Assembly (NCBI RefSeq): GCF_001463705.1
Contig: NZ_BBWH01000028.1
Location: 124,001 to 188,000 of the forward strand
DNA length: 64,000 nt
Direction: 5' to 3'
Origin: Aureimonas sp. AU12
GTDB taxonomy: Bacteria > Pseudomonadota > Alphaproteobacteria > Rhizobiales > Rhizobiaceae
Under the pieces are notes generated by a model, which was not told where the DNA came from, did not search any database, and saw nothing but the letters and a program-made list of their open reading frames with translations. Within the stretch, counting starts at the first letter, position 1, and every line of letters begins with the position of its first letter. Below, piece after piece: positions 44,576 to 60,602 of the stretch. The translations under genes and the position numbers were made by a program.

Positions 44576-44619
44576 GGTGGCGATGGGTGGACTTGAACCA
44601 CCGACCTCCGGGTTATGAA
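44576..44619. repeat. attL: 44-bp direct repeat, displaced tRNA-Met 3' fragment
   Basis: The sequence is identical over 44 bases to 60527-60570. Read on the minus strand it is the tRNA-Met 3' half from the anticodon loop to the discriminator base, but lacks the 5' half. The base just outside differs (G44575 against T60526), so the last A of an encoded CCA is present only at the right end. Confidence 0.93.
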
Positions 44620-44880
44620 GACGATTGGCAATCCAGCTTTTAAAAGGGTTTGAGCCCTCATGTTGCGAACATGTTGCGTTTTTTGTGCGTCGATGGCCTG
44701 TGCGTTCTCTGTCGTTCTATATCCGTATCGTACGAATTGTGTGACGCAACCGAGCTTTTAGGTACGCCGGTTCCCAGCTGCCACACCTTGTCCCTCGTTG
44801 TGTCCTGTACGCGCAAAAGCCTTGCTGTTCCTGCATCCACGGATATGTTCAGAGACAAATATCCTGGACTGGAGAATCGT
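44620..44880. promoter_or_regulatory. Left-end non-coding region with candidate integrase arm sites
   Basis: Two direct copies of ATGTTGCG occur at 44660-44667 and 44671-44678, 11 bases apart. The same motif recurs twice near the right end (60378 and 60390). Paired short direct repeats inside both att ends are typical arm-type integrase sites. The rest is AT-rich leader of the Fic operon. Confidence 0.55.
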
Positions 44881-45099
44881 ATGGCCGAACGCAAATCAGC
44901 CTTGAAGAGAGCGCCTGCGCGCCCCGAGCTGGAAGCGAAGCTGGCAAATGCGCGTACCGTAGTTTTGACCGAAGAGCAGCTACGGGAGCAGCGCGCAAGT
45001 TTCGTTTACGGGAACGCTCCTAAGGGATCGCGGATCACCCGGGAGTCAGCCCAGCGTGCGACTACTCATGTTAGAATTGGCGTCCAAGAGCCTGTGTAG
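44881..45099 (+). CDS. Small partner protein of Fic (probable antitoxin)
   Basis: This 72-residue basic protein lies 6 bases upstream of the fic gene, with GGAG eight bases before its ATG. Small proteins in this position often inhibit Fic enzymes through a helix with S/T-x3-E-G/N. Here residues 40-45 read SFVYGN, matching Ser and Gly/Asn but with Gly where the inhibitory Glu would be. The protein is therefore either a variant inhibitor or a different type of partner. Proteins with an xxSFVYGNAP segment next to Fic genes recur in bacteria as far as I recall, which supports a pair. Confidence 0.65.
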   Translation: MAERKSALKRAPARPELEAKLANARTVVLTEEQLREQRASFVYGNAPKGSRITRESAQRATTHVRIGVQEPV

Positions 45100-45105
45100 C
45101 TTGAT

Positions 45106-45756
45106 ATGATCGTTCTTGAGGATGAGGACCCGGAGCTTTATGACCGTGTACAGGAGCAAAATCTAGGCCGACAGTATAGTCTAATGCTGAATTGCATTGA
45201 GATTGGTCTCAAGCAAGGTCCTAGATCATTTGACAGGTCTTTGCTCTGGTCCTTAAACCATGTCGCAGTGGCAAATATATCGGCTTTTGGTGGGAGATTT
45301 CGCCAAGAGCCGATATATGTAGGCGATCACAAGCCACCCCATTTCAATGAGGTGGGTGATTGGATGGATCGGTTTATTTCGACGGTTCAAGAAAATTGGT
45401 ACATTTGGACGCCCACTGAGTTGGCTGCATACGGATTGTGGCGCCTCAATTGGATCCATCCATTTGTTGAGGGAAACGGCCGGACTGCAAGAGCTGTCTG
45501 CTACTTCTTGCTATGTGTTCGAAGTGGAGCCTTGCAGCCCGGGAAGCGCATACTCCCTGAGCGTATTCGCGACGCTCGAGATGGCTATGAGCAAGCCTTA
45601 ATCGCTGCTGATACCGCTTGGGATGCCGGGCATCTCGACTTTACAGATATGGAAGACTATCTCGCGGTCTTGGTCCAAGCGCAGATCGACGATGAAGGCC
45701 TCCCATACGAGGGTGGCGCCGTAGACCAGCCGAGCGAAAATAATCAGCCTAGCTGA
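45106..45756 (+). CDS. Fic-domain AMPylase-type protein
   Basis: This 216-residue protein has an intact Fic motif HPFVEGNGRTAR (His118), the usual preceding flap region (REPIYVGDHKPPHF) and an N-terminal helical part. Fic enzymes transfer AMP or other nucleotide parts onto proteins and often act as toxins, for example on gyrase. The Glu in the motif's acidic position (E instead of D) is also found in active members. Base composition is clearly lower in GC than the chromosome. It is an accessory gene of the satellite, between attL and the integrase, and ends near the convergent integrase stop. Confidence 0.9.
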   Translation: MIVLEDEDPELYDRVQEQNLGRQYSLMLNCIEIGLKQGPRSFDRSLLWSLNHVAVANISAFGGRFRQEPIYVGDHKPPHFNEVGDWMDRFISTVQENWYIWTPTELAAYGLWRLNWIHPFVEGNGRTARAVCYFLLCVRSGALQPGKRILPERIRDARDGYEQALIAADTAWDAGHLDFTDMEDYLAVLVQAQIDDEGLPYEGGAVDQPSENNQPS

Positions 45757-45774
45757 AAATATGCGTTCAGACGT

Positions 45775-47010
45775 TCACCCAAGGAGTGCCGCTTCAGCGG
45801 CAGCCATTTCGTCGGCTTCGTCGGCCTTCGGGAATAGGTGCGAGTAGCGGTCCATCGTCAGGGCGATCGTCGAATGGCCCATGCGGTCCTGTACCGTCTT
45901 CGGGGGCAGGGCAAGGCCGCCGTCTTCGCGGCGGTTGACGCACCATGACGCGAACCAATGGCGCAGGGCGTGCATGCCGGAATATTTCGGGGCGAGGACC
46001 TGGTGCCCGTCCGCGTCCACCTGGTCCGTCTCGACCGTGACGCCGGCAGCGATCCAAGCCGGATGCAGGCCGCGCCGCACGATGTTGTTGAGCTGCTCGA
46101 CCTTGCCGGCGCCGTTTGGGAACGCGAGATCGAGGACGAGGACCGGATTGCCGTCCGCGTCCCGCTTGCCTGTCCAGCGGCGAGGGCAGGCGAGCTTCCA
46201 TTCTCGAAGCGTGTTGATGACGATCGGCGGCGCCGGCACGGTGCGCTCGCCCGACGAGGATTTGGGCGACCCAATTTCGTTGTAGCGATCGGCGCGCTGA
46301 TGCACCCGGATCTCGCGGCGATCGAGATCCACGTCAGACCACCGCAGGCCGCGCAGCTCGGACGCGCGCAGGCCGGTGAAGATTGCCGTGAGAATCAGCG
46401 GACGCCATCGGCCTTCGACGGCGCCGACAAGCGCTTTGATCTCTTCGCGGGTCGGAATGTCGACGCCGATCTTCAGCTTGCCCCGGTGACGCTTCTCTTG
46501 GCGCCGATCGCTGCCGCCGCGTCGGCCGCGCACGTCGCGAATGACATTCCTGTTCGTCAGGCCCCGTTCCTGCGCGTCGGCGATCAACGTGCCGAGGGAG
46601 ACGAGTATCTTCCGCACCATGGCAGGGGAGCGCCCGGCCGTCCGAAGCTGGTCCTCGAAAGCGCGGACGGCGGGGATCGTCAAAGCCGAGATCTTCGCCT
46701 CGCCGAGGTAGGGCACGATATGCAATCGGAGATGGCCTTCGTAGCTGGCCGCCGTCGTCCGCTCCAGCCCGGCCGCATCGACGCTTGCCAGCCAGAGCTT
46801 GCCGGCGGCGGCAACCGTGACGCTGGCGCTATCGGCGACGTGCGTTCCGGCGCGGATCTCGACCAGGGCGGTAGCGGCGAAGGCGTCGGCCTGTTTCTTG
46901 AGCTTGAAGGTCTTGAGCCGGCGCTTACCCGTGGCGTCGGTGTAGTCGACGACCCATGCGGTTTTCGCTTCGCCGCCGGGCGTGGTCCAAGCCCGCTTGC
47001 GGACAGACAT
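45775..47010 (-). CDS. int: Tyrosine recombinase (integrase) of the element
   Basis: This 411-residue phage-type integrase has an N-terminal arm-binding part with a YTDATGKRRLKTFKLKKQAD segment, a SAM-like core-binding domain and the catalytic domain. Catalytic residues lie in GLRASELRGLRW (Arg), HALRHWFASW (His, Arg), MGHSTIALTMDRYSHLF (His and the Tyr nucleophile, about Tyr389). It would recombine the 44-bp tRNA-Met core. A start at 47010 leaves 4 bases after the Arc-type gene, so the two are cotranscribed. Confidence 0.93.
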   Translation of the reverse strand: MSVRKRAWTTPGGEAKTAWVVDYTDATGKRRLKTFKLKKQADAFAATALVEIRAGTHVADSASVTVAAAGKLWLASVDAAGLERTTAASYEGHLRLHIVPYLGEAKISALTIPAVRAFEDQLRTAGRSPAMVRKILVSLGTLIADAQERGLTNRNVIRDVRGRRGGSDRRQEKRHRGKLKIGVDIPTREEIKALVGAVEGRWRPLILTAIFTGLRASELRGLRWSDVDLDRREIRVHQRADRYNEIGSPKSSSGERTVPAPPIVINTLREWKLACPRRWTGKRDADGNPVLVLDLAFPNGAGKVEQLNNIVRRGLHPAWIAAGVTVETDQVDADGHQVLAPKYSGMHALRHWFASWCVNRREDGGLALPPKTVQDRMGHSTIALTMDRYSHLFPKADEADEMAAAEAALLG

Positions 47011-47014
47011 TTCA

Positions 47015-47344
47015 CTACTTTCCGTTTTTGTCTCTAATATTTCTAAGAGCGGCAATGGCTAGGTTTAGCTCTTCGGAGTATCGAATTACCGCTTCGGTAA
47101 TTTCGTCCTCGTCCATGGCTCGATATGACTGTTCTCTATACCAGCCTGAAGGGCGATGGGTACTCTGAACACCTTTATCAAAATCGAAATAGGTTTGGAC
47201 GAATTCGTAAGTTTCTTCCAAACGTTTCACAATTTCGGCGTTCATCGAGCGCTTATTCTCTGCTGCTGAACGCTTGAGCTTCTCGCGCATCCCCGGCGGG
47301 AGCCTGATTTGGAACTGTTCAAAATCAGCAGCCTTTGGCGGCAT
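47015..47344 (-). CDS. Arc-family ribbon-helix-helix DNA-binding protein
   Basis: This 109-residue protein has a clear Arc-type RHH at its N-terminus: EQFQIRLPPGMREKLKRSAAENKRSMNAEIVKRLEET. The C-terminus is charged and helical. RHH proteins are typical repressors or excision regulators of phages and satellites. It lies upstream of int on the same strand and divergent from the excisionase-like gene, with repeated TATGGGGTA sites in between that it may bind. Confidence 0.85.
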   Translation of the reverse strand: MPPKAADFEQFQIRLPPGMREKLKRSAAENKRSMNAEIVKRLEETYEFVQTYFDFDKGVQSTHRPSGWYREQSYRAMDEDEITEAVIRYSEELNLAIAALRNIRDKNGK

Positions 47345-47359
47345 CGACCCGACCCTCGT

Positions 47360-47435
47360 TTTTCATAGCACTATGGGGTAGATCCGTTGACGCCAATCCT
47401 CCCACTCTGCTACCCATATCATTGTGGGGTTAACA
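47360..47435. promoter_or_regulatory. Candidate regulator-binding repeats between arc-like and xis-like genes
   Basis: Three related sites occur: CACTATGGGGTAG (47369-47381), its inverted form CTACCCATAT (about 47409-47419) and CATTGTGGGGTTA (47420-47432). The two forward copies share CA-x-T-x-TGGGGT. They lie in the divergent promoter region, where an Arc-type repressor would act. Confidence 0.5.
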
Positions 47436-47446
47436 GGAGATGGAAA

Positions 47447-47644
47447 GTGCATACTCAAGGGAGTGCAGGGGAAACCCTCAACCTGATCTGGGGCGCCAAG
47501 GCGATCTCCAAATTTATCGGGCGTACGGAGCGTGCGACGTTCGGCATGCTCGAAAGCGGCGAGCTGCCGGCCAAAAAGGTGAGCGGGAAGTGGGTGGCCG
47601 AGCGTTCGAAGCTCACCAACTTCTTCGTGGAGTTCGCGTCTTGA
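47447..47644 (+). CDS. Excisionase-like small DNA-binding protein
   Basis: This 65-residue protein contains IWGAKAISKFIGRTERATFGMLESGELPAKKVSGKWVA, which fits a MerR/excisionase-type winged helix that reads a single recognition helix followed by a basic wing. Such proteins bend DNA for excision or act as AlpA-like activators in satellites. The GTG at 47447 has AGGAGA nine bases upstream; an upstream ATG in the same frame would extend through the operator region and is less likely. Confidence 0.7.
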   Translation: MHTQGSAGETLNLIWGAKAISKFIGRTERATFGMLESGELPAKKVSGKWVAERSKLTNFFVEFAS

Positions 47645-47727
47645 TCCGCGTCATCGACGAAACTGGCCCGGCAGAGGCTGCCACCTCTCCGGGCCGTGGT
47701 TCCAACAATTCCTGCAAGGAAAGCGCT

Positions 47728-48366
47728 GTGAACAGTCAGCTTCATAACACCGCGTCCAGCGGGGCGGCAAGGGCGCCGTTCGACTACCGCCAGTTCTATG
47801 AGGCGATCGAAGAGCCGATCCACTCTGCGGCAGGGCGATCTCACGTTCTCTGCATGCTCGCGGATACTACGTTCGCCATGGCTGCCGAGGGCGGGGTCAC
47901 CAAGGTCTTCGAGGACCAGGCGCGCACCATCGTCTTCATGATCGAAGAAGTTCACCGCGCCGTCAAAGCCCTCGACGAGATCTATCGAGAGACCTGGCCG
48001 GCGGAGGTTGTCAGTGAGACCGAGCGGAGGGGCAAGCTGATCCAGGATCGGACACGCGATGACGAAGAGCTTGCGCTGCTGCTCACCCGTCACCGTGCCG
48101 CCGCGATCGCGTTTAGGTCGGTCCTTGACGCGGCGGCTAGCGCTAACCGCTCCTCGGCAACTCAAACCGCTGGTGAGAAGGAGGCTCGGGCACTGTTGGA
48201 TCACGCGTCCCGCGACCTCTTGTCGTGGCGCCCGCGCACGCTCGAAGGCAATGCAATCCGCATCAAGTACCTGACTGACGACGAGCGTGGTCTCTGGCGC
48301 GATGTGCAGCCGGAAGAGGGCGAGCTGTGGTTGCTCTTCAGTTCGATGATGGAAAAGGACGCTTGA
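47728..48366 (+). CDS. Hypothetical protein of the satellite early region
   Basis: This 212-residue, largely helical protein has no known domain. A central segment AGRSHVLCMLADTTFAMAAEGGVTKVFEDQARTIVFMIEE is the most ordered part. A GTG at 47728 with AAGGA nine bases upstream is the best start; the frame is also open to a TTG at 47641 that overlaps the previous stop. The gene is coupled to the next one by a TTGA overlap. Confidence 0.65.
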   Translation: MNSQLHNTASSGAARAPFDYRQFYEAIEEPIHSAAGRSHVLCMLADTTFAMAAEGGVTKVFEDQARTIVFMIEEVHRAVKALDEIYRETWPAEVVSETERRGKLIQDRTRDDEELALLLTRHRAAAIAFRSVLDAAASANRSSATQTAGEKEARALLDHASRDLLSWRPRTLEGNAIRIKYLTDDERGLWRDVQPEEGELWLLFSSMMEKDA

Positions 48367-49157
48367 GCGCGCTGGCGACATTCGATTTCGAATTCGAGAG
48401 CCAGCCTATTAGGTTCTTGACGGTGGATGGCCGCGAAGCTGTCATCGGAAAAGATATGGCTTTGGCTATCGGGGTCGCACGTTACCGCGATGTGTTCGGT
48501 CGCATTCCAGCCGATGAAAAGGGGGCGGTTAGTATCCGCACCCTTGGCGGGCCGCAAAAGATGGTCGTGCTGTATGAGCCGGGCATGTATCGCTTGATTT
48601 TCGAAAGCCGCAAGCAGGCGGCCGAGCGGTTCAAGTCCTGGGTGTTCGGGACGGTGCTGCCGGAGATCCGGCGCACCGGCCGCTTCGGCGGCGCGACGGC
48701 GAAACCCGAACTAGATAGCGTCCTCGCGCTTGCTCGATCCTGCGAGCTGGTCCGTCGCATCCACGGTCGTCCAGCCGCACAGCGCCTTTGGTCTGAAATG
48801 GGCGGCATGCCCTTGCCCGTCGACGAAGAGCGAGCCGCGAGACGTTCACCCCCGGCAGGCGAGGCGCCGCGATCGACCGCATCGCCGCCAAGCGCACGAA
48901 ACATGCGGCAGCTCAAGGATGTTCGTCGGTTCCTGCGCTGCTGCTGCCGGCAAGTTCGCGGCGGCAAAGTGGGGGCTCGCACGCTGTATGCCGCCTATGC
49001 GGCTTGGGCGCCGATCGTGAACGCGGAACGGCTGACGCAAACCATGTTCGGTCTCCTCATGCGGCAGACGGAGATTGAGCGCGAGGACGGCCGCCGGCGG
49101 CACTATTTGGGGCTCAAGCTGACCGACATCGCCACGCATAGGATGCGCCACACGTGA
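48363..49157 (+). CDS. Bro-N domain protein with primase-type C-terminal winged helix
   Basis: This 264-residue protein has an N-terminal Bro-N/antirepressor domain: PIRFLTVDGREAVIGKDMALAIG, then VLYEPGMYRLIFESRKQAAERFKSWVFGTVLPEIRR. The C-terminal half ends GARTLYAAYAAWAPIVNAERLTQTMFGLLMRQTEIER, which looks like the winged helix at the end of P4/D5-type phage primases. No helicase or primase domain accompanies it. A role in regulating or starting replication at the adjacent iteron region is inference. The TTG at 48363 has AAAGGA upstream; an ATG at 48327 is the alternative. Confidence 0.72.
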   Translation: MSALATFDFEFESQPIRFLTVDGREAVIGKDMALAIGVARYRDVFGRIPADEKGAVSIRTLGGPQKMVVLYEPGMYRLIFESRKQAAERFKSWVFGTVLPEIRRTGRFGGATAKPELDSVLALARSCELVRRIHGRPAAQRLWSEMGGMPLPVDEERAARRSPPAGEAPRSTASPPSARNMRQLKDVRRFLRCCCRQVRGGKVGARTLYAAYAAWAPIVNAERLTQTMFGLLMRQTEIEREDGRRRHYLGLKLTDIATHRMRHT

Positions 49158-49390
49158 CGAGGTCACCGCAACCATGTCTTCGCCCGCGTGCCATGCCGCG
49201 CGAGCGCCATTATTTGGCCGCCGTCAGCCTCCCCCGCACCCCCACCGTGCGGCGGCGGCGCTTCGCCGTTTTTTGGGAGATGGCGAACGGACCATAAGCG
49301 CGCAAAATCAGTAAAGGAGCCTTGTTTTACCGCAAGTTTGCGGCCGAAATCACCCTATTCAGGGAACGGGAAAGCTGTGTCTAGTGTGCG

Positions 49391-49485
49391 GTTGCGATAG
49401 TTTGCGAGGGTTTGCGATACCTTGCGAGGGGCGCCGGGGAGCCGCGAAGCCCTGTGACGCAAGGGGTTTGCGATAGGTGCGAGGC
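49391..49485 (+). repeat. Direct decamer repeats TTGCGA-type, left array
   Basis: Four decamers lie back to back with a 10-base period: GTTGCGATAG, TTTGCGAGGG, TTTGCGATAC and CTTGCGAGGG (49391-49430). A further TTTGCGATAGGTGCGAGG follows at 49467. A 10-bp period puts sites on one helix face. Confidence 0.75.
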
Positions 49486-49611
49486 TTCCTCACGTGGGCG
49501 CGCGTAAGACCATTTCACCGAGTAAGATTGGTTATATGCCTATAGAAACTGGAAAAACTATCGCGAGACTTTCGAAGTCGTTGAAAAAATTAGTGAAATT
49601 TCGGATTTTCC

Positions 49612-49652
49612 ACCCTCGCTAACTACTGATCTACCCTCGCAAACCCTCGTAA
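49612..49652 (-). repeat. Inverted decamer repeats, right array
   Basis: ACCCTCGCTA (49612-49621), ACCCTCGCAA (49633-49642) and ACCCTCGTAA (49643-49652) are reverse complements of the left-array unit TTTGCGAGGG or variants. Two are adjacent at 10-base spacing. Confidence 0.75.
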
Positions 49653-49826
49653 AGTCTGACCTAGGAAATTTATTTGTGGGCAGATGCAAAAGAACGATCC
49701 TCTTGGCTCCCCTCAGACTGCAAAATATAGCTGTTACGCCTATTCAAACTCCAATCAGTACAGTTACTTCGGTTTGCATTTCAGGAAAGACTTCGACCAA
49801 GTAGGGCCTTCACTTGAGGGCCGGAC

Positions 49827-51041
49827 GTGTCGAACTGGATTGGCGGATTTATCGGGTCGCTTCTGCGCCGCGACGTTGCGGGCGTCGTCAGCCTTTCCGA
49901 CGCCCGGTTGGTCGAGATCTTCGGCGCAACGCCCGCCGCCGCCGGCATCGCCGTTACCCCGGCCTCGGCCATGCGGTCGACGCCCGTCCGGTGCGCAGTC
50001 CAGACGATCGCCGAGGCGATCGGTCAGCTTCCCATTCACGTCGTCGAGCGCGGCGAGAACGGCTCGAAGTCGCGGGCGACGGATCATCCGGCTTATGCGC
50101 TGGTCCACGACCAGGCGAACGATTGGACCTCGGCCTCCGACCTTCTCGAACAGGTCACAAGGGACGCCCTCCTTCATGGCAACGGCTATGCCTTCATCAA
50201 CCGGCAGAACGGCCAGCCGCGCGAACTGATCCGCCTCGATCCACCGTCCCTCACGGTCGAGCGGGACCGCCACACGGGCGAACCGCTTTACTCGATCACG
50301 GAACAGGGTGGCCGCCGCTACCTCGATCGGCGCGACCTGATCCACATCAAGGCGCCATCGATGGACGGGCTTTCCGGCGCCAGCCCGATCACGCAAGGCC
50401 GCGAGGCCATCGCGCTTGCCCTCGTCATGGAAGAGCATGCGGCCAAGCTCTTCGCGAACGGCGCTCGCCCGTCCGGCATCCTGAAGTTCCCGAACAAGCT
50501 GGGTGCCGAGACCGCGCCCCGCATCAAGGCGTCATGGAACGCTAGCCATGCCGGCGGCGCGAAGTCGGGTGGCACGGCCGTTCTGGAGGAAGGCGGCGAC
50601 TTCCAAGCCCTGACCTTCTCGTCGGTCGACGCGCAGTTCTTAGAGCTGTGGCAGCACGTCATCACCGAGATTGCCCGGATCTTCCGCGTCCCCCCGCACA
50701 TGCTCTTCGAGCTGGGGCGGGCGACCTGGGGCAACGCCGAAGAGATGGGCGCGAGCTTCGTCCGCTTCGGCCTGATGCGCTGGGTGAAGGCTTGGCAGGG
50801 CGAGCTGCGCCTCAAGCTCTTCACCGCCGAGGAACGCTCCCGGTTCACCGCCGAGTTCGTCCTCGACGATCTCCTTCGCGCCGATACGACGACGCGCTTC
50901 GAGGCCTACTCGAAGGCGATCACGGCTCGCATCCTGAACCCGAACGAGGTCCGCGCCCGCGAGAACCTGCCGCCCTACGCGGGCGGTGACGAGTTCGCCA
51001 ATCCACACACGACGAGCGGCAGCGCCGGGGGCGAGGCATGA
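49827..51041 (+). CDS. Phage portal protein, HK97 family
   Basis: This 404-residue protein matches the HK97-type portal family: an N-terminal SAMRSTPVRCAVQTIAEAIGQLP, a central DLIHIKAPSMDGLSGASPI, and FRVPPHMLFELGRATWGNAEEM. Portals form the dodecameric vertex through which DNA is packaged. The start is a GTG at 49827 with GAGGG upstream. The stop overlaps the protease ATG (ATGA), the first of a series of coupled genes. Confidence 0.95.
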   Translation: MSNWIGGFIGSLLRRDVAGVVSLSDARLVEIFGATPAAAGIAVTPASAMRSTPVRCAVQTIAEAIGQLPIHVVERGENGSKSRATDHPAYALVHDQANDWTSASDLLEQVTRDALLHGNGYAFINRQNGQPRELIRLDPPSLTVERDRHTGEPLYSITEQGGRRYLDRRDLIHIKAPSMDGLSGASPITQGREAIALALVMEEHAAKLFANGARPSGILKFPNKLGAETAPRIKASWNASHAGGAKSGGTAVLEEGGDFQALTFSSVDAQFLELWQHVITEIARIFRVPPHMLFELGRATWGNAEEMGASFVRFGLMRWVKAWQGELRLKLFTAEERSRFTAEFVLDDLLRADTTTRFEAYSKAITARILNPNEVRARENLPPYAGGDEFANPHTTSGSAGGEA

Positions 51042-51580
51042 CCGACCATATCGACCTGTCGTTCCGGTTCGCCGCGCCCGACGAGAGCGGGATCTTCACC
51101 GGCCTTGCTGCCGTCCACACCGAACCGAACTCGCACGGCGAGACGATCCGCTTCGGCGCGTTCAAGCGGACGCTGGCCGAGCACAAGCGCGCCGGCACAC
51201 GGCCTCTCATGCTGCGCGACCACGATCCCCGCGCGATCGTTGGCGTGTGGGAAACGATCGTCGAGACCGACAAGGGCCTTGCCGTCACCGGCCGCTTCAT
51301 TCGCGAGACCGCTGGCGGGGCCGAGGCTTACGCCCTCGTAAAGGCCGGCGCCGTCAACGGCCTCTCGATCGGCTTCCGCGCCCGCGCCGATACGCGGGGC
51401 CCGAACGGCAGCCGGATCATCACCGATATCGACCTCGTCGAGATCTCGCTCGTCGGCCTGCCCTCGGCGGCACGGGCGCGGATCAAGACCATCCACTCGC
51501 AACATGGCCGTCCGTCGAGCGCGGCGGCCTTCATCGAAGCCTGCCGTAAGGCCGCGCGCTCTCTGGAGACACGATCATGA
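51038..51580 (+). CDS. HK97-family prohead protease
   Basis: This 180-residue serine protease has catalytic His62 (MLRDHDPRAIVG) and Ser110 (NGLSIGF), with the FKRTLAEHKRAG and VEISLVGLPS segments normal for the family. It cleaves the capsid protein delta domain during maturation. Its short overlap with the capsid gene (4 bases) points to coupled expression. Confidence 0.95.
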   Translation: MTDHIDLSFRFAAPDESGIFTGLAAVHTEPNSHGETIRFGAFKRTLAEHKRAGTRPLMLRDHDPRAIVGVWETIVETDKGLAVTGRFIRETAGGAEAYALVKAGAVNGLSIGFRARADTRGPNGSRIITDIDLVEISLVGLPSAARARIKTIHSQHGRPSSAAAFIEACRKAARSLETRS

Positions 51581-52806: not shown

Positions 52807-52841
52807 GCCGCGATCCCCCTTCATCTCTGGAGCACCATCCG

Positions 52842-53234: not shown

Positions 53235-53248
53235 GATCGGAGAGGGCC

Positions 53249-53821: not shown

Positions 53822-53823
53822 CG

Positions 53824-54315
53824 ATGCCCGTTCACGCACCCCGTATCTGTTCCTGCGGCAAGACGGTCGCCAGCGGCAAGACGTGCGCTTGCCGGATCAA
53901 GGCACGTGCCGAGGCGGACGCTCGCCGCCCCTCTGCGGCCGTGCGCGGCTATGACGCCGCCTGGAAGCGTGTCCGCTCCGACTTCCTCAAGCGCCATCCC
54001 GTGTGCTGCTCGCCCGGTTGCGGCAAGCCTGCGACCGAAGCCGATCACGTCGTCAGCGTCGCGGAGCGGCCGGACCTGCGCCTGTCGTGGTCGAATCTTC
54101 GACCCTTCTGCAAGCCGCACCACTCACAGCGCACGGCACGCGACCAGGGCTTCGCCCGATCGGGCGCCCGGACCCTCGATCTCCCCTCGATCGACCGCCC
54201 GACCGGGGGGGTGGGTGCGAACTTCACCCCAAAGGCCGGAGACCGTCTGGGTAGGCACGCGCGCGAGAGAGGCCAAATGGATTTTTCCGTTTGGGTTGAT
54301 GGGCTTGACCGATGA
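53824..54315 (+). CDS. HNH endonuclease
   Basis: This 163-residue protein has paired cysteines (RICSCGKTVASGKTCAC and HPVCCSPGCGKPATEADH) and the HNH core EADHVVSV...LSWSNLRPFCKPHHSQR. In HK97-type phages and cf-PICIs an HNH protein is encoded next to the terminase and is needed for cos-type DNA cutting. The stop region overlaps terS by 4 bases. The C-terminal 50 residues are less conserved. Confidence 0.9.
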   Translation: MPVHAPRICSCGKTVASGKTCACRIKARAEADARRPSAAVRGYDAAWKRVRSDFLKRHPVCCSPGCGKPATEADHVVSVAERPDLRLSWSNLRPFCKPHHSQRTARDQGFARSGARTLDLPSIDRPTGGVGANFTPKAGDRLGRHARERGQMDFSVWVDGLDR

Positions 54316-54707
54316 GAGGGGTCAAGCCGCACCTCGTCGTGTCGAACGAAAACCCGCTCCCGGCGGCCTCGTCCGCGCCCGATTGGATGAGCGTAGAGGC
54401 GCGCGAGGAATGGGATCGGGTTTACCCGATCGTCGCCGTTCGCCGCGTCCTCACGGCGGCCGACATGGCCTCGCTGGAGAATTACTGCACGGCGGTCGGC
54501 CGCTCCCGGCAACTGGAGCGCGCCATCCAGCGGGCCGGCGACGATCTCGATCTCAAGATGATCCGCATGCAGGACAAGAGCATGTCGACCGCCCGCCAGC
54601 TCGCGGTGGAAATCGGTCTGACGCCTTCGGCTCGCTCGCGCTCGACGTTCCGCGAACAGGAGGAAGGCAGTGTCCAAAATGACCTCTTCTCCCAGCTGGA
54701 TCTTTGA
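54312..54707 (+). CDS. Terminase small subunit, P27 family
   Basis: This 131-residue protein contains LPAASSAPDWMSVEAREEWDRVYPIVAVRRVLTAADMASLENYCTAVG-type helices (written here as two segments: WMSVEAREEWDRV and LTAADMASLENYCTAVG) and ends in a RSRSTFREQEEGS tail, as in P27-type TerS. TerS picks the DNA for packaging. In satellites the TerS is the specificity factor that directs packaging of the island genome. It overlaps terL by 38 bases. Confidence 0.88.
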   Translation: MRGVKPHLVVSNENPLPAASSAPDWMSVEAREEWDRVYPIVAVRRVLTAADMASLENYCTAVGRSRQLERAIQRAGDDLDLKMIRMQDKSMSTARQLAVEIGLTPSARSRSTFREQEEGSVQNDLFSQLDL

Positions 54708-56280
54708 CGGCAGCGAGATCCCCGACCCCTTCGGGTACGGGGAGCGCGCCGTCCAGTTCCTGCGCGGCCTGAAGCATCCCAAAAGCCGCTTGCCCGGCCG
54801 CGCCTTCGACCTGCCGCACTGGCAGGAGCGCATCGTGCGCAAGATTTACGGCCCGTGTGATGAGAACGGTCGTCGCATCGCGCGAACCGTCGTGATCCTC
54901 CTGCCGCGCGGCAACCGCAAGACCAGCCTCGGCGCCGCGCTGGCGCTCCTGCATACGATCGGCTTCGAGAAGCTGGCTGGGGGCCAAGCGCTCTGCGCGG
55001 CCTCGGATCGCAAGCAAGCGCTGATCGCCTATGAAGAGGCGGTCGGCATCCTCAATCAGGACCCGCGCTTCGCGGCCGTCCTCAGTTTCCAAGCCTACAA
55101 GAACCGGATCGTTCACGCGAAGAGCGGCGCGGCACTGGAGGCGATCTCGGCCGACGCCGGAACGCAGCACGGACGCACGCCGACCTTCGCACTCGCCGAC
55201 GAGCTGCACGCGTGGAAGAACCGAGACCTATGGGACGTGATCCGCACCGGCCTCGTGAAGGTCGCCGGATCGCTCATGGTGGTCATCACCACGGCCGGGC
55301 GCGGGCAAGAGAACATCGCCTGGGATATCGTCGACTATGCCCGCAAGGTGCAGGCCGGCGAGATCGACGATCCGTCCTACGTCCCGGTCATCTTCGAGAC
55401 CGCGAAGAACGCCGACTGGCAGGACGAGGCCGTCTGGCGCGCGGTGAACCCCGGCCTCGTCGATGGCTTCCCGGATATCGAAGGCCTGCGCGCCCTGGCG
55501 CGCGAGGCGAAGAACCGTCCTGGCGATCGTGAGGCCTTCCGGCAGCTCCATCTGAACGTCTGGCTCGATCACTCGGCCGAGCCGTTCGTCGACATGGACG
55601 TGTACGACCAGGGCGCGGCCCGCATCGACCTTGCGGCGCTCGCCGGGCGGCCGTGCTGGCTTGGTGTCGACCTGTCGTCGAACTCGGATCTTACGGCGAT
55701 CGTCGCCGCCTTCCGTGACGACGCGGACGGCTTCGTCGTCGTGCCGTGGTTCTTCTGCCCGGCCGACAATCTGCGGCGGCGGTCGGAACTGGACGGCGTG
55801 CCCTACACGACCTGGGCGACCGAGCGACACATTATCCCGACGCCCGGCAACGTCGTCGACTTCCGGCGGGTTGAGGACGAGATCCGCGATCTTTGCGACC
55901 GGTTCGACGTGCGCGAAATCGCGTTCGATCCACACCTCGCCCGCAACATGCTGAACAACCTTCTCGAAGACGGCTTCCCCGCGGTCGAGATGCGGCAGGG
56001 CTGGGTGACGATGGCGCCGGCAGTCAAGGAACTGGAGCGCGCGATCGTCGGCGGCGGCTTCCAGCACGGCGGCCACCCTGTCCTACGCTGGAACTTCCAG
56101 AACATCTCCGTCGAGACCGACAAGGCCGGGAACCGCATGTTCCACAAGGGCAAGAGCCGCGACCGCATCGACGGCGCGGTTGCCGCCGCCATGGCCGTCG
56201 CCCGCGCCGCTGCCGGCGACGACGATCGCTCGGTCTACAGCGACTTCGGGGCGCGGCCGGAAGGGCTGCTGGTCTTCTGA
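54670..56280 (+). CDS. Terminase large subunit
   Basis: This 536-residue ATPase-nuclease has Walker A LLPRGNRKTS (79-85), Walker B TFALADELHAW (Asp178-Glu179) and an RNase-H-like nuclease domain. The nuclease acids sit in GVDLSSNSDLTAIVA, FDPHLARNML and SRDRIDGAVAAAMA. It pumps DNA into the head and cuts it. A GTG at 54670 with AGGAAGG is the likely start; an ATG three codons later is possible. Here it lies downstream of portal and capsid, not upstream as in most HK97-type phages. Confidence 0.95.
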   Translation: MSKMTSSPSWIFDGSEIPDPFGYGERAVQFLRGLKHPKSRLPGRAFDLPHWQERIVRKIYGPCDENGRRIARTVVILLPRGNRKTSLGAALALLHTIGFEKLAGGQALCAASDRKQALIAYEEAVGILNQDPRFAAVLSFQAYKNRIVHAKSGAALEAISADAGTQHGRTPTFALADELHAWKNRDLWDVIRTGLVKVAGSLMVVITTAGRGQENIAWDIVDYARKVQAGEIDDPSYVPVIFETAKNADWQDEAVWRAVNPGLVDGFPDIEGLRALAREAKNRPGDREAFRQLHLNVWLDHSAEPFVDMDVYDQGAARIDLAALAGRPCWLGVDLSSNSDLTAIVAAFRDDADGFVVVPWFFCPADNLRRRSELDGVPYTTWATERHIIPTPGNVVDFRRVEDEIRDLCDRFDVREIAFDPHLARNMLNNLLEDGFPAVEMRQGWVTMAPAVKELERAIVGGGFQHGGHPVLRWNFQNISVETDKAGNRMFHKGKSRDRIDGAVAAAMAVARAAAGDDDRSVYSDFGARPEGLLVF

Positions 56281-57179
56281 TGCTGCATATCTCAGCCGAA
56301 ACCCTCCTCTTCCTGAAAAAACAACAGGCGGCGGCCGAGGCAGCCGAGCGGCGGCGCCTCGCGGTCGCGGTTCACAAGCCGCCGAGAAAGCTTGACCACA
56401 AGAGGCTAAGCCGTCTGGTGGCCTCAGCCGCCCTGATCCTTCGCGCAGGGCATCCCACGCTGTTCGAGTACGAGGGGGCTTGCCGGCGCGGTCTTCGGAT
56501 CGCTCTCATTCGGCAGGGCTGGGTTTGGGCCGATGCGGACAGAAGCGCGGCGAAGGTCGTGGAAACGGCTCTTCATTCTCTCGGCGCCGAGCGGCCCACG
56601 TGGAAGGAAGGTCAGTCGGACTTTGCCATTGCCGATCGCGGCGAGCGGTATCGTTGCGCCCGCTGCGGTGGCGCTCTCGAAGGAGACCGATACAAATATT
56701 GCAGCAAGAGTTGCGGCCAGCTTGCATCGCAAACAAAAGCGAGAGCAAGCAGTGAACGCCTTGACCGCGCGCAATACCTAGCAAGCTTGGCGCTTCGCAA
56801 AGAGGAAGCCATACGAGAGCGCTCCGAACCCTGCGAGCATTGCGGAAAATACATGCTGACGCTGGAGATCGGCCAACGGTTTTGCTCCACACAGTGCTCC
56901 GGCGCTCGCCGCAAGATCTACAAGGACAAGCCCTGTCCGACGTGTGCCAAGCTGTTTTACCCGAACGTCAAAAACGGCATCGAGAAGAAATTCTGTTCGA
57001 ACGCTTGCTCATGGGAGCAGAAGCGCGTGGCCAAGCCGGAAGCGACTTGCCCGACGTGCGAGAGCGTCTTCCGATGGCGAACCCGGACAATTCCGCAGAA
57101 ATTTTGCTCTGCCCGATGCTCGCCCCGAAGCGCGCAGTTCGCTGGGCGGAGCACGTTCAAATGTGAAGGGACCGAATGA
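56280..57179 (+). CDS. Multi-zinc-ribbon protein of the packaging operon
   Basis: This 299-residue protein has an N-terminal helical part (about 1-120) and at least four zinc-ribbon-like modules (C-x2-C pairs): YRCARCGGAL/KYCSKSCG, PCEHCGKYM/RFCSTQCS, PCPTCAKLF/KFCSNACS, and TCPTCESVF/KFCSARCS. It starts by overlapping the terL stop (TGATG) and is read with the packaging genes. I do not recognise its family; the repeated ribbons suggest nucleic-acid or protein binding. An insertion of a regulatory or homing-type gene cannot be excluded. Confidence 0.7.
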   Translation: MLHISAETLLFLKKQQAAAEAAERRRLAVAVHKPPRKLDHKRLSRLVASAALILRAGHPTLFEYEGACRRGLRIALIRQGWVWADADRSAAKVVETALHSLGAERPTWKEGQSDFAIADRGERYRCARCGGALEGDRYKYCSKSCGQLASQTKARASSERLDRAQYLASLALRKEEAIRERSEPCEHCGKYMLTLEIGQRFCSTQCSGARRKIYKDKPCPTCAKLFYPNVKNGIEKKFCSNACSWEQKRVAKPEATCPTCESVFRWRTRTIPQKFCSARCSPRSAQFAGRSTFKCEGTE

Positions 57180-57547
57180 TGGTCGCTGCCGAACCACTAC
57201 GCCTTGGATCAAGCCGCACAATCTCGCCTCGCGCTCTCAGTGTCATGGCCGCCTACCGAAGGCAGCTGACCGGAAACCCGATCCTGCTACGGCGTCACGA
57301 TGCGCCCGACTGCTACGCTCGGGGACGCGTCATGGGTTTCTCGGCAGCGGAGATCGTCGGCGGGGTGCAGGAAGGGCGGCGCAAACTGATTGTGTTCGCG
57401 TCTGACGTCACCTGGTCCGATCCGCTGCGCGAGGGCGACCTTGCGATCGTCGACGGCGCGGAACTCTACGTCAACACGGTCGACGACCAGCGGCGCCGCG
57501 TCGACGGCACGCTGATGGCCTACGAAGTCACGGCGGGCGGGCGATGA
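57176..57547 (+). CDS. Head-tail joining / head-closure-like protein
   Basis: This 123-residue protein has a beta-barrel-like pattern: PILLRRHDAPDCYARGRVMGFSAAEIVGG, KLIVFASDVTWSDPLREGDLAIV and VNTVDDQRRRVDGTLMAYEV. It resembles short adaptor proteins found just before HK97 gp10 genes. The ATG at 57176 overlaps the previous stop; an internal ATG at 57245 would remove a non-conserved N-terminus. Confidence 0.65.
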   Translation: MMVAAEPLRLGSSRTISPRALSVMAAYRRQLTGNPILLRRHDAPDCYARGRVMGFSAAEIVGGVQEGRRKLIVFASDVTWSDPLREGDLAIVDGAELYVNTVDDQRRRVDGTLMAYEVTAGGR

Positions 57548-58206
57548 AGCCTTCGAAGATTGCGCCGATCTTCCGCGAGGTCGAATTGAGCTTCGCGGCG
57601 CATTCCTCGCCGAGGGTGCGCTCGAGGAAACTGGCGGCCTATGCGCTGGATAAGATCAGCGAGGCTAAGCGCATCAATGGCACGGCCGATCGGCCCGCTC
57701 CGCATCGCCAGATCGTCGACGGCCGGGAGGGGGCGCCGCTCGCCTCGGTGAAGCCCGATGGCGTGATCGTCGCCCGCTTCAATCTCGTCACCGAGGCCCT
57801 GATCTGGATCGGCGACGAGCTGGTGAAGAACAGTCCCGTTCTGACGGGGCAGTTCGCGCGCAGTCACGTCCTCTACATCGACGGGACGCCGCATGTGCCG
57901 GGCACGCCGTACCTGGACGGCGAGGAATACGCCTTCATCAACGTCCAGCCCTACGCCCGGCGGATCGAGAAGGGCTGGTCGAAGAAAGTCCCGGACGGTC
58001 TCTATGAGGGCGTCGCGACGATGGCGGCGCAGCGGTTCGGCAACATCGCCCGGATCGGCTTCGCCTGGCGCTCGCTGGAGGGCGCCGGCGCGCTCGATGC
58101 CTGGGCCGGCAAGACCAGCATGACGCGCAAGGATCGCGACCTCAAAGGGGCGGACCTGCAGGACTGGCTGAAACGACAACCCGCGATCACCGTGAGGCCG
58201 AACTGA
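57544..58206 (+). CDS. HK97 gp10-like adaptor protein
   Basis: This 220-residue protein carries the gp10-like core NSPVLTGQFARSHVLYIDG, followed by AFINVQPYARRIEKGWSKKVPDGLYEGVA. These proteins complete the head-tail interface. It overlaps the previous gene by 4 bases. The last recognised phage-structure genes follow; no major tail protein is found. Confidence 0.75.
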   Translation: MKPSKIAPIFREVELSFAAHSSPRVRSRKLAAYALDKISEAKRINGTADRPAPHRQIVDGREGAPLASVKPDGVIVARFNLVTEALIWIGDELVKNSPVLTGQFARSHVLYIDGTPHVPGTPYLDGEEYAFINVQPYARRIEKGWSKKVPDGLYEGVATMAAQRFGNIARIGFAWRSLEGAGALDAWAGKTSMTRKDRDLKGADLQDWLKRQPAITVRPN

Positions 58207-58207
58207 C

Positions 58208-58642
58208 ATGGCGCACCCGCATGTGATTGCTGCCGTCGACGCCCGCTTCCGTGCCGGCTTCGTCGAGCCGGATTGCCCGATCCGGGAAGTGAACGACAAG
58301 CCCGGCGCAGACAAGACGCGCACGGCCTTCGTCGTGCTGCAGTTTCCATGGTGCCGCTCGGATCCCGCGACAGTCGGGGCGCCGGGCGGCCAGTGGTTTG
58401 CCGAACAGGGGACGTTCCGCTTCGTCATCGCCCTGCCGAAGGGCGAAGGGCTCGGCCAAGGGCCGACCTGGGCGGAGCGGATCGCGGCTCTGTTCCGCAG
58501 CGAAGAGTTCGAAGGCCTGTGGTGCATGGCGCCCGGCTCGCCGGTCATCGACGACGCTAACGAAACTGACGCGTATTTTCGCGTTTCGTTTAGCGTGCCT
58601 TACGAGTTCCAGTTCCAGATTGAGGAGCATAAGCGAATATGA
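58208..58642 (+). CDS. Tail-terminator-like protein
   Basis: This 144-residue protein has the alpha/beta layout of small tail-terminator or tail-completion proteins (HPHVIAAVDARFRAGFVEPDCPI, TAFVVLQFPWC, GTFRFVIALPKGEG, FRVSFSVPYEFQFQ), possibly DUF4128. In a satellite it would prepare the head to accept a helper tail. It is the last gene of the structural operon, and the GC content drops sharply right after its stop. Confidence 0.62.
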   Translation: MAHPHVIAAVDARFRAGFVEPDCPIREVNDKPGADKTRTAFVVLQFPWCRSDPATVGAPGGQWFAEQGTFRFVIALPKGEGLGQGPTWAERIAALFRSEEFEGLWCMAPGSPVIDDANETDAYFRVSFSVPYEFQFQIEEHKRI

Positions 58643-58663
58643 CGCCGCAATAACTTTACCCGA

Positions 58664-59086
58664 CTATAAAAGTGAAAGCTGCTGAAATTCGTTGTGCTTG
58701 GCCGGCTGTACAGAGGGGACGTACATAAAGGACTGAGGAGGTGTGAAATTCGGGAACATTTCATCCGGGTCTAATGGTGAATCAAACTCCTGTACAAAGC
58801 CGATTTGCAACGCATAGCCAAGTTGACGACCTGCGAAATAGGAATCGAAAAAGTCCTTAGAGATTCCCGATCCGGCGTAAGTCGTCTCCCACAAAGCCTC
58901 CGGAGAGTCTTGAATAATTCTATCTATAGAAAACTCACCCACAATTTTAGCGACTGGTTTAGTTGAATAAATCAAGATTTTTCTTACATCTTTTCGTGAA
59001 AATATTTTTTTTCTGAACTCAAATATTTTAACCCCGTCAAGAATCTTCCGGACATGGACTGGATTAATCGACAATAATACGCGCAT
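58664..59086 (-). CDS. ASCH-domain protein
   Basis: This 140-residue protein is a single ASCH (PUA-like) domain: LLSINPVHVRKILDGVKIFEFRKKIF, ILIYSTKPVAKIVGEFSIDRII, and GSGISKDFFDSYFAGRQLGYALQI. ASCH proteins bind RNA or modified nucleotides. It is AT-rich and overlaps the GNAT gene by 23 bases on the same strand, so the two form a cargo pair. No function has been shown for this pair that I know of; defence or toxin-antitoxin roles are possible. Confidence 0.8.
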   Translation of the reverse strand: MRVLLSINPVHVRKILDGVKIFEFRKKIFSRKDVRKILIYSTKPVAKIVGEFSIDRIIQDSPEALWETTYAGSGISKDFFDSYFAGRQLGYALQIGFVQEFDSPLDPDEMFPNFTPPQSFMYVPSVQPAKHNEFQQLSLL

Positions 59087-60119
59087 TTACTTCTCCAAGC
59101 TCCAGCATGCTTCTGAGCTGATCGTGGGTCAGCTCCCGAAGATCCCAGCGCGGCTGCTCTGTCACGATCCCATCGTCCATTAGGCGCCCCCTCGTAATGC
59201 GCTTTGAAAGGGCTGCATTATAAGTCAGCTTGGCAACGTACAAACGGGACCAAGCGGCCCAATAGCCACGTAACTCCTCCTCGGGGAAGACGCTGCGGGG
59301 CAACGCATAATCTATAAAATCTTGGCCATCCCGGAAATCACGCTTCTTCCGGACCTCCTCAACGACGCATACAGACGTTATGACCGAGCGATAATAGGCA
59401 GGTCCTTTGTGATCGTTTGTCCTGTAGAAGATGACAGTGTCACCAGGCGATAAGCGACTAAGTGCAAGCTTCGAAATATAGACTTTATGGATCGTATTTG
59501 TATGCGAGACGTCCCTGACCATATCTGCATCTTCGTTATGCAAAATTGAATCGGGTAGAAGCTCAGTATGGTACTCTGGGTAGATCGCCAAAAGCCATGC
59601 TTTATGGTTGGCAAGTGTTATGAAAGGGTAATCCCGAGTCCTGTCGCCTACAGTAGTTGTAAGTGACCGCGTAAACACCAATTCAATGCCATTATCGGTT
59701 GCTTTTGTGCCTGATCTGACAAAACCATACTTTGTGAAAAGCTTTATCAGCTTATCATGAAGTTCAAACACCGTAACGTAGATCCCATCACAACCTCTAT
59801 CGATCGCGGTATCAAATATCTTTTTGATGACACGCTCACCTAATCGAGTCCCTTTGCCATCTATCTTGAGGGTTCCAACCTTCAGCCAATGGAGATCGGG
59901 GAGGTTTGGTTCAACGTCTTCAACTGGACCGTTCTCCTCTTTTAGGTATATCATACCGCTTAGAGAATTGTTCTCATCGTCTCTTACAACGTAAAGTTCC
60001 TCATCGGCTTTGCCTGCAAACCAGCGAGGAAACTCATCATATCCTGCCTTCAGACTATCAAAGAAAGGATCATCAATAGACAAGTTGCGAAATTTCGTTA
60101 ACTCAAGCCTGCGTCCCAA
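59064..60119 (-). CDS. GNAT acetyltransferase fused to a PUA/ASCH-like C-terminal domain
   Basis: This protein of about 351 residues has an N-terminal GNAT domain (LYVVRDDENNSLSGMIYLKEE, the KIDGKGTRLGERVIKKIFDTA acetyl-CoA loop, LIKLFTKYGFVRSGTKATDNG). Its C-terminal half contains KLALSRLSPGDTVIFYRTND, YRSVITSVCVVEEVRKKRDF, a PUA-like or ASCH-like fold. The N-terminus is uncertain: TTG at 60119 with GGGAGGG upstream is preferred; upstream frames run into the att arm and tRNA region. With the neighbouring ASCH gene it forms an accessory module at the right end of the satellite. Confidence 0.75.
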   Translation of the reverse strand: MGRRLELTKFRNLSIDDPFFDSLKAGYDEFPRWFAGKADEELYVVRDDENNSLSGMIYLKEENGPVEDVEPNLPDLHWLKVGTLKIDGKGTRLGERVIKKIFDTAIDRGCDGIYVTVFELHDKLIKLFTKYGFVRSGTKATDNGIELVFTRSLTTTVGDRTRDYPFITLANHKAWLLAIYPEYHTELLPDSILHNEDADMVRDVSHTNTIHKVYISKLALSRLSPGDTVIFYRTNDHKGPAYYRSVITSVCVVEEVRKKRDFRDGQDFIDYALPRSVFPEEELRGYWAAWSRLYVAKLTYNAALSKRITRGRLMDDGIVTEQPRWDLRELTHDQLRSMLELGEVNARIIVD

Positions 60120-60525
60120 CCAACCCTCCCGCGTGATTCGTTCAACTTGAGGTGGAGAATAAGCCGGCCCTACCGCTGTTTGCCAGACCCAACGTGATGA
60201 GCACCTTTTTGTAAGGCCAAGGTGAGTCTCACCCTGCAGGCAGGGTGCTGAGGGGCGGCAACCCGTCTGGGCAGCCATCAATCGTTTCAGTCGTGAATGA
60301 TTCGCTCTCTGCGTCGACCATGGCTTGCCGTTTAAACGGCTTTCGCACCGCTCATGGCGGTCATCTTTGCGCCCGCCATGTTGCGCGACATGTTGCATGG
60401 AGTAGCCGTGGGTGCCGGGAACCCCCCGCAATCCAAGGGAAGTGAAGCGCAACAAGCTGCGACACGGAGCTAGGCTCAACAATGCCGTTGGCTGCAGAAT
60501 TTGTCGTAAAATCAAGTGGTTGGGG
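60120..60525. promoter_or_regulatory. Right-end non-coding region with candidate integrase arm sites
   Basis: This 406-base region has no trusted gene. It holds a hairpin CACCCTG-CAGG-CAGGGTG at 60230-60247 and two copies of ATGTTGC (60378-60385 and 60390-60396) that match the left-end pair. The promoter of the GNAT-ASCH operon must also lie here. Confidence 0.55.
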
Positions 60526-60602
60526 TGGTGGCGATGGGTGGACTTGAACCACCGACCTCCGGGTTATGAATCCGGCGCTCTAACCAGCTGAGCTACACTG
60601 CC
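60526..60602 (-). tRNA. tRNA-Met (CAT anticodon), target of integration
   Basis: On the minus strand a 77-base cloverleaf starts GGCAGTG and ends CATCGCC-A-CCA. The D arm is normal, the anticodon stem-loop CCGGATTCATAACCCGG carries CAT, and the T arm is GGTGG-TTCAAGT-CCACC. The acceptor has an A4-C69 mismatch and a G5-T68 pair; with CACTGCC at the 3' side it would pair fully. The 3' half (60527-60570) is the att core. Lysidine-modified tRNA-Ile is an unlikely alternative. Confidence 0.9.
60527..60570. repeat. attR: 44-bp direct repeat inside tRNA-Met
   Basis: Identical over 44 bases to 44576-44619. It runs from the discriminator base through the T arm and variable loop to the anticodon loop, so the crossover lies within the tRNA 3' half and the gene is restored by element sequence. 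Confidence 0.93.

Follow-up and report, generated by a model that had tools for sequence, protein, structure and literature searches.

How satellites are matched to the phages that mobilise them is an unsolved question, and it is raised by an element of Aureimonas sp. AU12 that encodes a phage head. The element lies at positions 44576-60570 (15,995 bp) of a 64,000-nucleotide stretch of DNA (contig NZ_BBWH01000028.1, positions 124,001 to 188,000), which we analyzed as a whole and call the window. A first-pass annotation had described it as similar to the capsid-forming phage-inducible chromosomal islands (cf-PICIs), satellites that build their own head and take the tail of a helper. Which helper, then, would copy this element and supply its tail? 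According to our analysis, the element is probably a capsid-forming satellite whose likely helper is a siphoprophage in the same genome (contig C23): it would build its own head, be replicated by the prophage through a shared class of origin, and use the prophage tail. What is new here is this helper link, for which the sequence names a candidate by two features, the tail interface and the origin class.

A TerL search of the AU12 genome found one other place, contig C23. It carries a siphoprophage of about 41 kb (IMG/VR contig of 40,867 bp) which adjoins a tRNA-Arg gene, has an 18-bp repeat at its ends and is apparently complete. Its early, packaging and head genes encode an integrase, a primase, a D5-type helicase, HNH, TerS, TerL, portal, protease, capsid and adaptor, and its tail and lysis genes a major tail protein, a 2000-amino-acid tape-measure homologue, a minor tail protein with an fn3 domain and a phage lysozyme. 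The 2000-amino-acid protein was assigned by homology to a protein of L139, a satellite of Aureimonas sp. ME7, that PHROGs confirms as a tape measure; several C23 genes downstream of the tape-measure gene have no assigned function. Portal, protease, capsid, adaptor and TerL of the element share 29-35% amino acid identity with those of the prophage (31% for TerL), while the neck protein is 97%, the tail terminator 94-96% and the head closure protein Hc1 69% identical. These last three genes lie on the plus strand at 57544-58206 (neck or tail completion; phrog_169, 2e-9), 58208-58642 (phrog_179, 4e-11) and 57176-57547 (a weak match to phrog_161, 8e-4). The sole long DNA match between element and prophage is a single ungapped patch of 1,272 bp at 94.5% identity (57347-58618, plus strand, against C23:48925-50196). 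Its edges are sharp: it starts inside Hc1, of which it covers the 3' part, and stops at the end of the tail terminator. Within the patch, the ratio of nonsynonymous to synonymous substitution rates (dN/dS) is 0.14 for the neck and 0.19 for the tail terminator.

The closest relative of the element is L002, an IMG/VR contig that keeps its layout and shares about 79% DNA identity with it across the integrase and from portal to TerL, and 67% from Hc1 to the tail terminator. The necks of these two are 57% identical although their TerL proteins are 88% identical. Compared with a prophage of genome G469, the C23 prophage has an adaptor, Hc1, neck and tail terminator that are 68%, 67%, 70% and 73% identical, so that its neck diverges like its immediate neighbours. 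Because the neck of the element is low against L002 where TerL is high, and that of C23 diverges alongside its neighbours, a transfer from phage to satellite is suggested, and the patch was most likely taken by the satellite from a C23-type phage.

The second DNA match between element and prophage is noncoding (49352-49514 against C23:39802-39965, 68% identity; E 4.7e-8 against a small prophage set). Both regions contain copies of a TTTGCGAGGG-like unit, some spaced by 10 bp, and facing inverted copies. The matched region stands immediately downstream of the helicase gene in C23 and three other prophages (L164, L108, L165), and in the satellites (the element, L002 and L139) it follows a gene that encodes a winged helix. 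This gene fuses the domain to BRO-N in the element and L002, and to Arc in L139 (L139:14198-14821). In the element it lies at 48327-49157 on the plus strand (PF02498, 7e-12; phrog_1156), and the winged helix resembles the C-terminus of a D5-type phage primase-helicase: residues 195-268 match phrog_1156, and there is 37% identity to the C-terminus of the C23 helicase, which itself matches D5_N and Pox_D5. The predicted structure of the domain (mean pLDDT 91.5) is similar to the winged helix of RFX (E 9.9e-4) and, more weakly, to AsfvPrimPol. From its position, its repeats and its similarity to the prophage, we call the iteron region (49352-49653, plus strand) a putative replication origin.

Since counting iterons is statistically weak, we compared eight origin regions in all 28 pairs by Smith-Waterman alignment, with z values from shuffled controls. 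The element and its own resident prophage C23 gave a z of 20.5, and L139 and the prophage L164, which lies on contig C15 of the same ME7 genome, gave 20.1. The origin regions of the element and L139 are unrelated to each other (z 0.7), and the crossed satellite-prophage pairs gave 1.3 and -0.9. L002 matched the element at 22.0, two prophages of other species matched each other at 147.8, and eight further pairs were moderate (4.1 to 9.3). Among 18 Aureimonas stretches outside both satellites, C23 was the best match to the element origin (63; next 41). On sequence evidence, each of the two satellites carries an origin class found in its resident prophage, the resident not being the only match.

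These features suggest the following mechanism, each functional step of which is our reading of them. Upon induction, the satellite would excise, and the D5-type primase-helicase of C23 would replicate it from the iterons. The BRO-winged-helix protein may act at these iterons by recruiting, timing or competing. TerS and TerL of the satellite would pack its DNA into its own head. With a neck and tail terminator of the C23 kind, this head would accept the C23 tail, and the prophage would also provide lysis. On this view, the satellite lineage would keep its head and terminase, and would exchange its origin and tail interface as modules according to the helper. That there is a whole class of replicase-less capsid-forming satellites, tracking their helpers by swapping iterons and head-to-tail interface to the kind of the resident prophage, is a proposal that we put forward tentatively and that could nearly as well be right as wrong. 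If it holds, satellite-helper pairs could be predicted from sequence alone, and the fusion of BRO or Arc to the winged helix would represent a new type of replication adaptor or competitor, derived from the origin-binding domain of a helicase. The helper reading offers a specific proposal for how a satellite lacking a replicase could be copied, and it makes helper specificity testable by single gene removals.

Several observations weigh against the proposed helper and against such a class. The L002 origin matches C23 at a z of 26.7, above the 20.5 of the element, and L002 is not known to come from a genome that contains C23; our confidence in the helper reading and in such a class is tempered because of this. 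The L139 origin scored 82 with its resident prophage, 84 with a prophage of another species (G759) and 72 with a G545 prophage. The iteron count of the element is modestly above chance (6, against a mean of 3.15 and a maximum of 5 in 40 simulations). In the A. frigidaquae satellite (G774), a repeat-bearing stretch, chosen as the origin by a guess from its repeats and overlapping called genes, matched nothing else in the genome. The interface match is found in one genome only, the ME7 satellite having a neck and tail terminator 37% identical to those of its resident prophage, and a search of the viral_contigs set with the L002 neck returned only L002 itself and no cognate prophage. The mosaic make-up of C23, whose portal and tape measure are 32% and 39% identical to those of the G469 prophage, makes the direction of transfer uncertain. 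Purifying selection, measured by comparison with L002, is weaker in HNH (dN/dS 0.41), the cysteine-rich gene (0.37), the neck (0.31) and the adaptor (0.29). The AU12 genome also holds a further capsid-bearing cluster (L055, on contig C28 at about 231 kb), whose head-tail gene order, we presume, recalls gene transfer agents.

The element is bounded by two exact 44-bp repeat copies, as the first-pass annotation had proposed, at 44576-44619 and 60527-60570 (neither assigned a strand), which sit in a longer imperfect match of 68 nucleotides. The tRNA target had escaped that annotation: a tRNA-Met(cat) gene lies at 60526-60602 on the minus strand, and its 3' half is the right repeat copy. In 1-kb windows, the GC content drops to 0.465 inside the element, against 0.61-0.77 outside. 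In two other Aureimonas species (G782 and G777), the left-flank gene is about 150-175 bp from the tRNA, so the site is empty there; in two further genomes of the genus (G776 and G779) this gap is about 1.9 and 1.6 kb. In G783, a sister species, a second repeat copy lies about 37.7 kb from the tRNA, and a different element of about 37.7 kb (L201-L202; G783:C105, 155.5-193.2 kb) apparently occupies the same tRNA-Met site. L139 occupies the same tRNA and flanks as the element in another Aureimonas species, and its TerL, portal and capsid are 89%, 80% and 74% identical to those of the element. The L139 contig (17,649 bp) has one exact 48-bp repeat, the attachment core, at both its start and its end, and other copies of this repeat are found near the ends of the ME7 contigs C11 and C4, which bear the left and right flank genes. 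This shape could be due to the assembly alone, or it could mean that the element was excised, or in a mixed state, in the culture that was sequenced.

The genes expected of a capsid-forming satellite are present and their reading frames are open, in agreement with the first-pass annotation: integrase, small regulators, portal, protease, capsid, connector, HNH, TerS, TerL and adaptors. We searched 20 element proteins in Pfam and PHROGs and found no match to tail-tube, tape-measure, tip, lysis or polymerase families; the BRO protein gives the lone primase match, through its C-terminal domain. The absence of tail tube, tape measure, lysis and replicative polymerase genes that had been claimed is upheld for these 20 proteins. 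A complete temperate or complete small phage was rejected, the element having no recognised tail, lysis or replication modules. It shares with the cf-PICIs an integrase and a specific attachment site, its own capsid, protease and portal, its own TerS, TerL and HNH, head-tail connector and adaptor genes, and the lack of recognised tail genes, which would leave the tail to a helper (L002 has the same layout). An AlpA-type regulator is uncertain: the relevant small open reading frame matches HTH_17 at 4e-7 in L139, at 0.0034 (below the cut-off) in L002 and not at all in the element. The Pri-Rep initiator, listed as a cfPICI signature gene in one study (PMC10448857), was not found, and Pfam and PHROGs searches of the element returned no primase, helicase or Rep family. 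We call the element cf-PICI-like rather than a cf-PICI because this signature is lacking; cf-PICI membership is not supported as it had been worded, and a capsid-forming, satellite-like and alphaproteobacterial element is.

Comparison with known systems places the element as follows. Its 16 kb are near the 14-kb average of cf-PICIs, which are primarily found in Enterobacteriaceae, Pasteurella, Morganellaceae and several Gram-positive groups (PMC10803314), whereas this element is alphaproteobacterial, has a BRO-winged-helix fusion, carries an origin-like region of its resident prophage's class, and has a neck and tail terminator nearly identical to those of that prophage. Known phage satellites all use satellite-encoded replicases except MulchRoom and MiniFlayer of Streptomyces (PMC10690885). 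Like the element, these two have head and packaging genes and no obvious replicase, and helper-dependent replication has been argued for them; unlike here, where the origin-like match is to a temperate helper candidate, their helpers are virulent, and they show no significant PICI homology (PMC10690885). Putative E. coli satellites (PMC10448857) have head genes and a tape measure without most tail genes, as do some relatives of the element, but they lack terminase, protease and adaptors and have a RepA protein. The Salmonella genomic island SGI1 is likewise integrated, with helper-dependent replication and an iteron origin, but it encodes its own RepA and its helper is a conjugative plasmid (PMC7826253). 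Co-occurrence of satellite and prophage does not guarantee compatibility: none of the 17 prophages of its strain detectably mobilised the cfPICI EcCIEDL933 (PMC11389934). We found no recognisable report of such an origin or neck swap in the portions of the literature consulted, in which subscription papers were mostly not covered, and this is weak evidence of absence.

Could the element simply be a defective prophage, stripped of its genes for tail, lysis and replication, whose patch is a functionless gene conversion with a co-resident prophage? Prophage remnants are common, recombination between co-resident prophages needs no satellite biology, and the element is catalogued in IMG/VR as a viral contig (L001). 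However, the reading frames of the head genes are open, and comparison with L002 shows purifying selection on most head and packaging genes: dN/dS is 0.09 for the integrase, 0.17 for the portal, 0.19 for the protease, 0.16 for the capsid, 0.15 for the phrog_5707 protein, 0.19 for TerS and 0.12 for TerL, with dS of 0.5-1.0 for these genes (Hc1 gave 0.22; the tail terminator is saturated). Moreover, heads without a recognised tip or lysis gene recur in relatives, 10 of the 18 tested being closed by exact repeats of 44-60 bp, the sister element L139 sits at the same tRNA and flanks in another species, and the origin class agrees with the resident prophage in two genomes. We consider a mere remnant quite unlikely. 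A domesticated head cluster of the gene-transfer-agent kind is hardly credible, even with the separate cluster L055 in the same genome, since the element has an integrase and exact attachment repeats at a tRNA, is patchily distributed (TerL relatives in 5 of 21 genomes of the genus) and leaves empty sites in two species. Gene transfer agents have no integrase or attachment site and are kept vertically within a lineage.

Two other explanations keep a satellite and change the meaning of the shared noncoding region. In one, the element is an ordinary cf-PICI with its own origin and an unrecognised initiator, either the 240-amino-acid protein or the BRO fusion, and the similarity to the prophage origin reflects shared ancestry. 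The 240-amino-acid protein (47641-48366, plus strand; 46% identical in L002) is conserved and has no usable family, the BRO fusion appears from its predicted fold to bear an origin-type winged helix, the same origin class occurs in L002, for which no resident match is known, and known satellites replicate from their own origin, according to PMC10803314. Against this stand the failure to find a primase, helicase or Rep family in the element and the finding that the origins of the two sister satellites are unrelated to each other and each of its resident prophage's class, which common descent fails to explain; we find this explanation rather improbable. In the other, which is compatible with the rest of the satellite reading, the region is a cos or packaging site, or a late promoter controlled by the helper. 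It does lie directly upstream of the satellite's head operon (49157-49827), and in the prophage it precedes HNH-TerS by 1-2 kb. With TerL proteins 31% identical, though, a shared packaging site is not expected, and an origin fits the repeat spacing of about 10 bp, the facing inverted copies and the constant place beside the helicase or its C-terminal domain, so that we hold a packaging or promoter role to be unlikely. The iteron region, like the resident prophage that shares the neck and tail terminator, had gone unnoticed in the first-pass annotation.

Relatives were found by a TerL alignment scan of a named genome collection, which gave 73 loci. The capsid was rejected as a marker: it has matches in 278 of 397 genomes of the order, with identities of about 40% in many of the matches listed, and we infer that these are gene-transfer-agent-type and other prophage capsids. 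In a search of a phage collection, 584 records matched the capsid, every one below 60% identity. By sequence titles and general taxonomy, one of the 73 loci is a Verrucomicrobia metagenome-assembled genome, two are placed in Proteobacteria only and the rest are alphaproteobacterial, so that a widespread alphaproteobacterial group of head-encoding elements emerges; within the genus, TerL relatives of at least 55% identity occur in the 5 of 21 genomes mentioned above, AU12 included. We examined 76 loci, namely 72 of the 73 (L279 was left out) together with the element, L002, L139 and L140; L139/L245 and L140/L215 are each one element counted twice. Genes were called with our own caller, which may miss some. 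TerL was called in 70 of the 76 loci, and 49, all from the scan, have at least 7.5 kb on each side of it. The gene order with the terminase after the capsid, claimed for the element, was confirmed and is shared by many relatives.

A major tail protein, tape measure and neck are present in 22 of these 49 loci, a tape measure without a major tail protein in 10, a major tail protein and neck without a tape measure in one, and none of the three in 16. L233 and L235 were counted as tape-measure loci, direct matches overriding a neck-only clustering, and a representative of the 22-locus group has a major tail protein (phrog_158), a tail assembly chaperone (phrog_313) and a tape measure (phrog_10574). 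The statement that tail genes are absent holds for the element and fails for the family, many relatives carrying tail-tube and tape-measure genes. Seven C23 proteins used as tip, fibre and lysozyme queries (some tip by position alone, and one of 515 amino acids with no assigned PHROGs function) match none of the 76 loci, in which many large flanking genes are left unannotated; only two of the seven match a control prophage, in control stretches cut at about 20 kb. Six-frame open reading frames of the 16 tail-less loci gave no tape-measure, tail-tube, neck, terminator, C23 tip or lysis match, and in nine of these loci 10 large genes close to TerL matched no tail or lysis PHROG, other large genes there being unannotated. 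Relatives with a full tail and lysis module, which the first-pass annotation had named as the sign of a deleted prophage, were not recognised in the 49 well-flanked loci, within the limited reach of these queries.

The repeat test covered 23 hand-picked loci, 5 of which dropped out because an integrase, portal or TerL had not been called in them. The ten closed relatives measure about 15.5-18.5 kb, and a tRNA lies at the repeat in eight of them, the other two having been left out of the tRNA scan; in the remaining 8 of the 18, the flanking repeat was short or not found. Eight loci of about 17-18.5 kb with exact attachment repeats (L211, L227, L229, L246, L260, L262, L274 and L278) carry head, connectors, major tail protein and tape measure, and no tip or lysis gene was recognised in them by the queries used. 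Such loci may be satellites that make a head and a tail tube of their own and take only the tip from a helper. The tape-measure family has a median length of 701 amino acids (39 members). In L139, segments of the tape-measure gene (L139:2565-5936) share 76-82% DNA identity with the tape measure of the ME7 resident prophage, including 786 bp at 81%. In three Aureimonas loci (L109, L166 and L167, of genomes G759, G775 and G778), no head genes were called, and we found a tape measure of 997-1125 amino acids, two unassigned genes and a neck; no flanking repeat was found in the ranges searched for these three or for L146. The tape measures of the Aureimonas prophages L105, L106, L108 and C23 have 1756-2000 amino acids, that of L164 has 1266, and those of other prophages have 490 to 1977. 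That L109, L166 and L167 imply shorter tails is only a guess.

The rest of the element is arranged as follows. The tyrosine integrase (45775-47055, minus strand; PF00589, 4.6e-14; phrog_1, 1e-61) is 87% identical in L002. It is followed by an Arc-type repressor (47015-47344, minus strand; PF03869, 2.5e-13) and by the small HTH/excisionase-like open reading frame (47387-47644, plus strand), whose L139 orthologue passes HTH_17 and whose element copy has no Pfam match. Downstream of the putative origin, all genes of the head and packaging module are on the plus strand: portal (49827-51041; PF04860, 4.9e-103), S78 prohead protease (51038-51580; PF04586, 1.3e-20), HK97-type major capsid protein (51577-52806; PF05065, 1.1e-83), a conserved head-module protein (52842-53234; phrog_5707, 9e-22), head-tail adaptor (53249-53821; phrog_442, 3e-24), HNH endonuclease (53824-54315; phrog_144, 7e-22), TerS of the Terminase_4 family (54312-54707; PF05119, 1.3e-16) and TerL (54670-56280; PF20441, 8e-35; PF03354, 6e-18). 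The adaptor of the first-pass annotation stands, and its count of connectors was too low: Hc1, the neck and the tail terminator (57176-58642) are also present, with the terminase between them and the adaptor. Downstream of TerL lies a cysteine-rich, zinc-finger/HNH-like protein (56277-57179, plus strand; phrog_1271, 4e-14) that recurs in relatives; its family was seen in 19 of 85 clustered loci, at varying positions.

Candidate cargo is found at both ends. Between the left repeat and the integrase (44650-45756), a small open reading frame (44650-45099), for which PADLOC, the sole search run on it, gave no match, precedes a Fic/Doc-family protein (45106-45756, plus strand; PF02661, 4.5e-15); the two are perhaps cargo of the toxin-antitoxin type. 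At the right end, our PADLOC search for defence genes returned a candidate phage-defence pair (58664-60515) that the first-pass annotation had missed. It consists, on the minus strand, of PDC-M11B (58664-59086; 4.9e-46) and the GNAT-domain protein PDC-M11A (59064-60515; 2.9e-127 on 59064-60203), whose true start probably lies inside this open reading frame.

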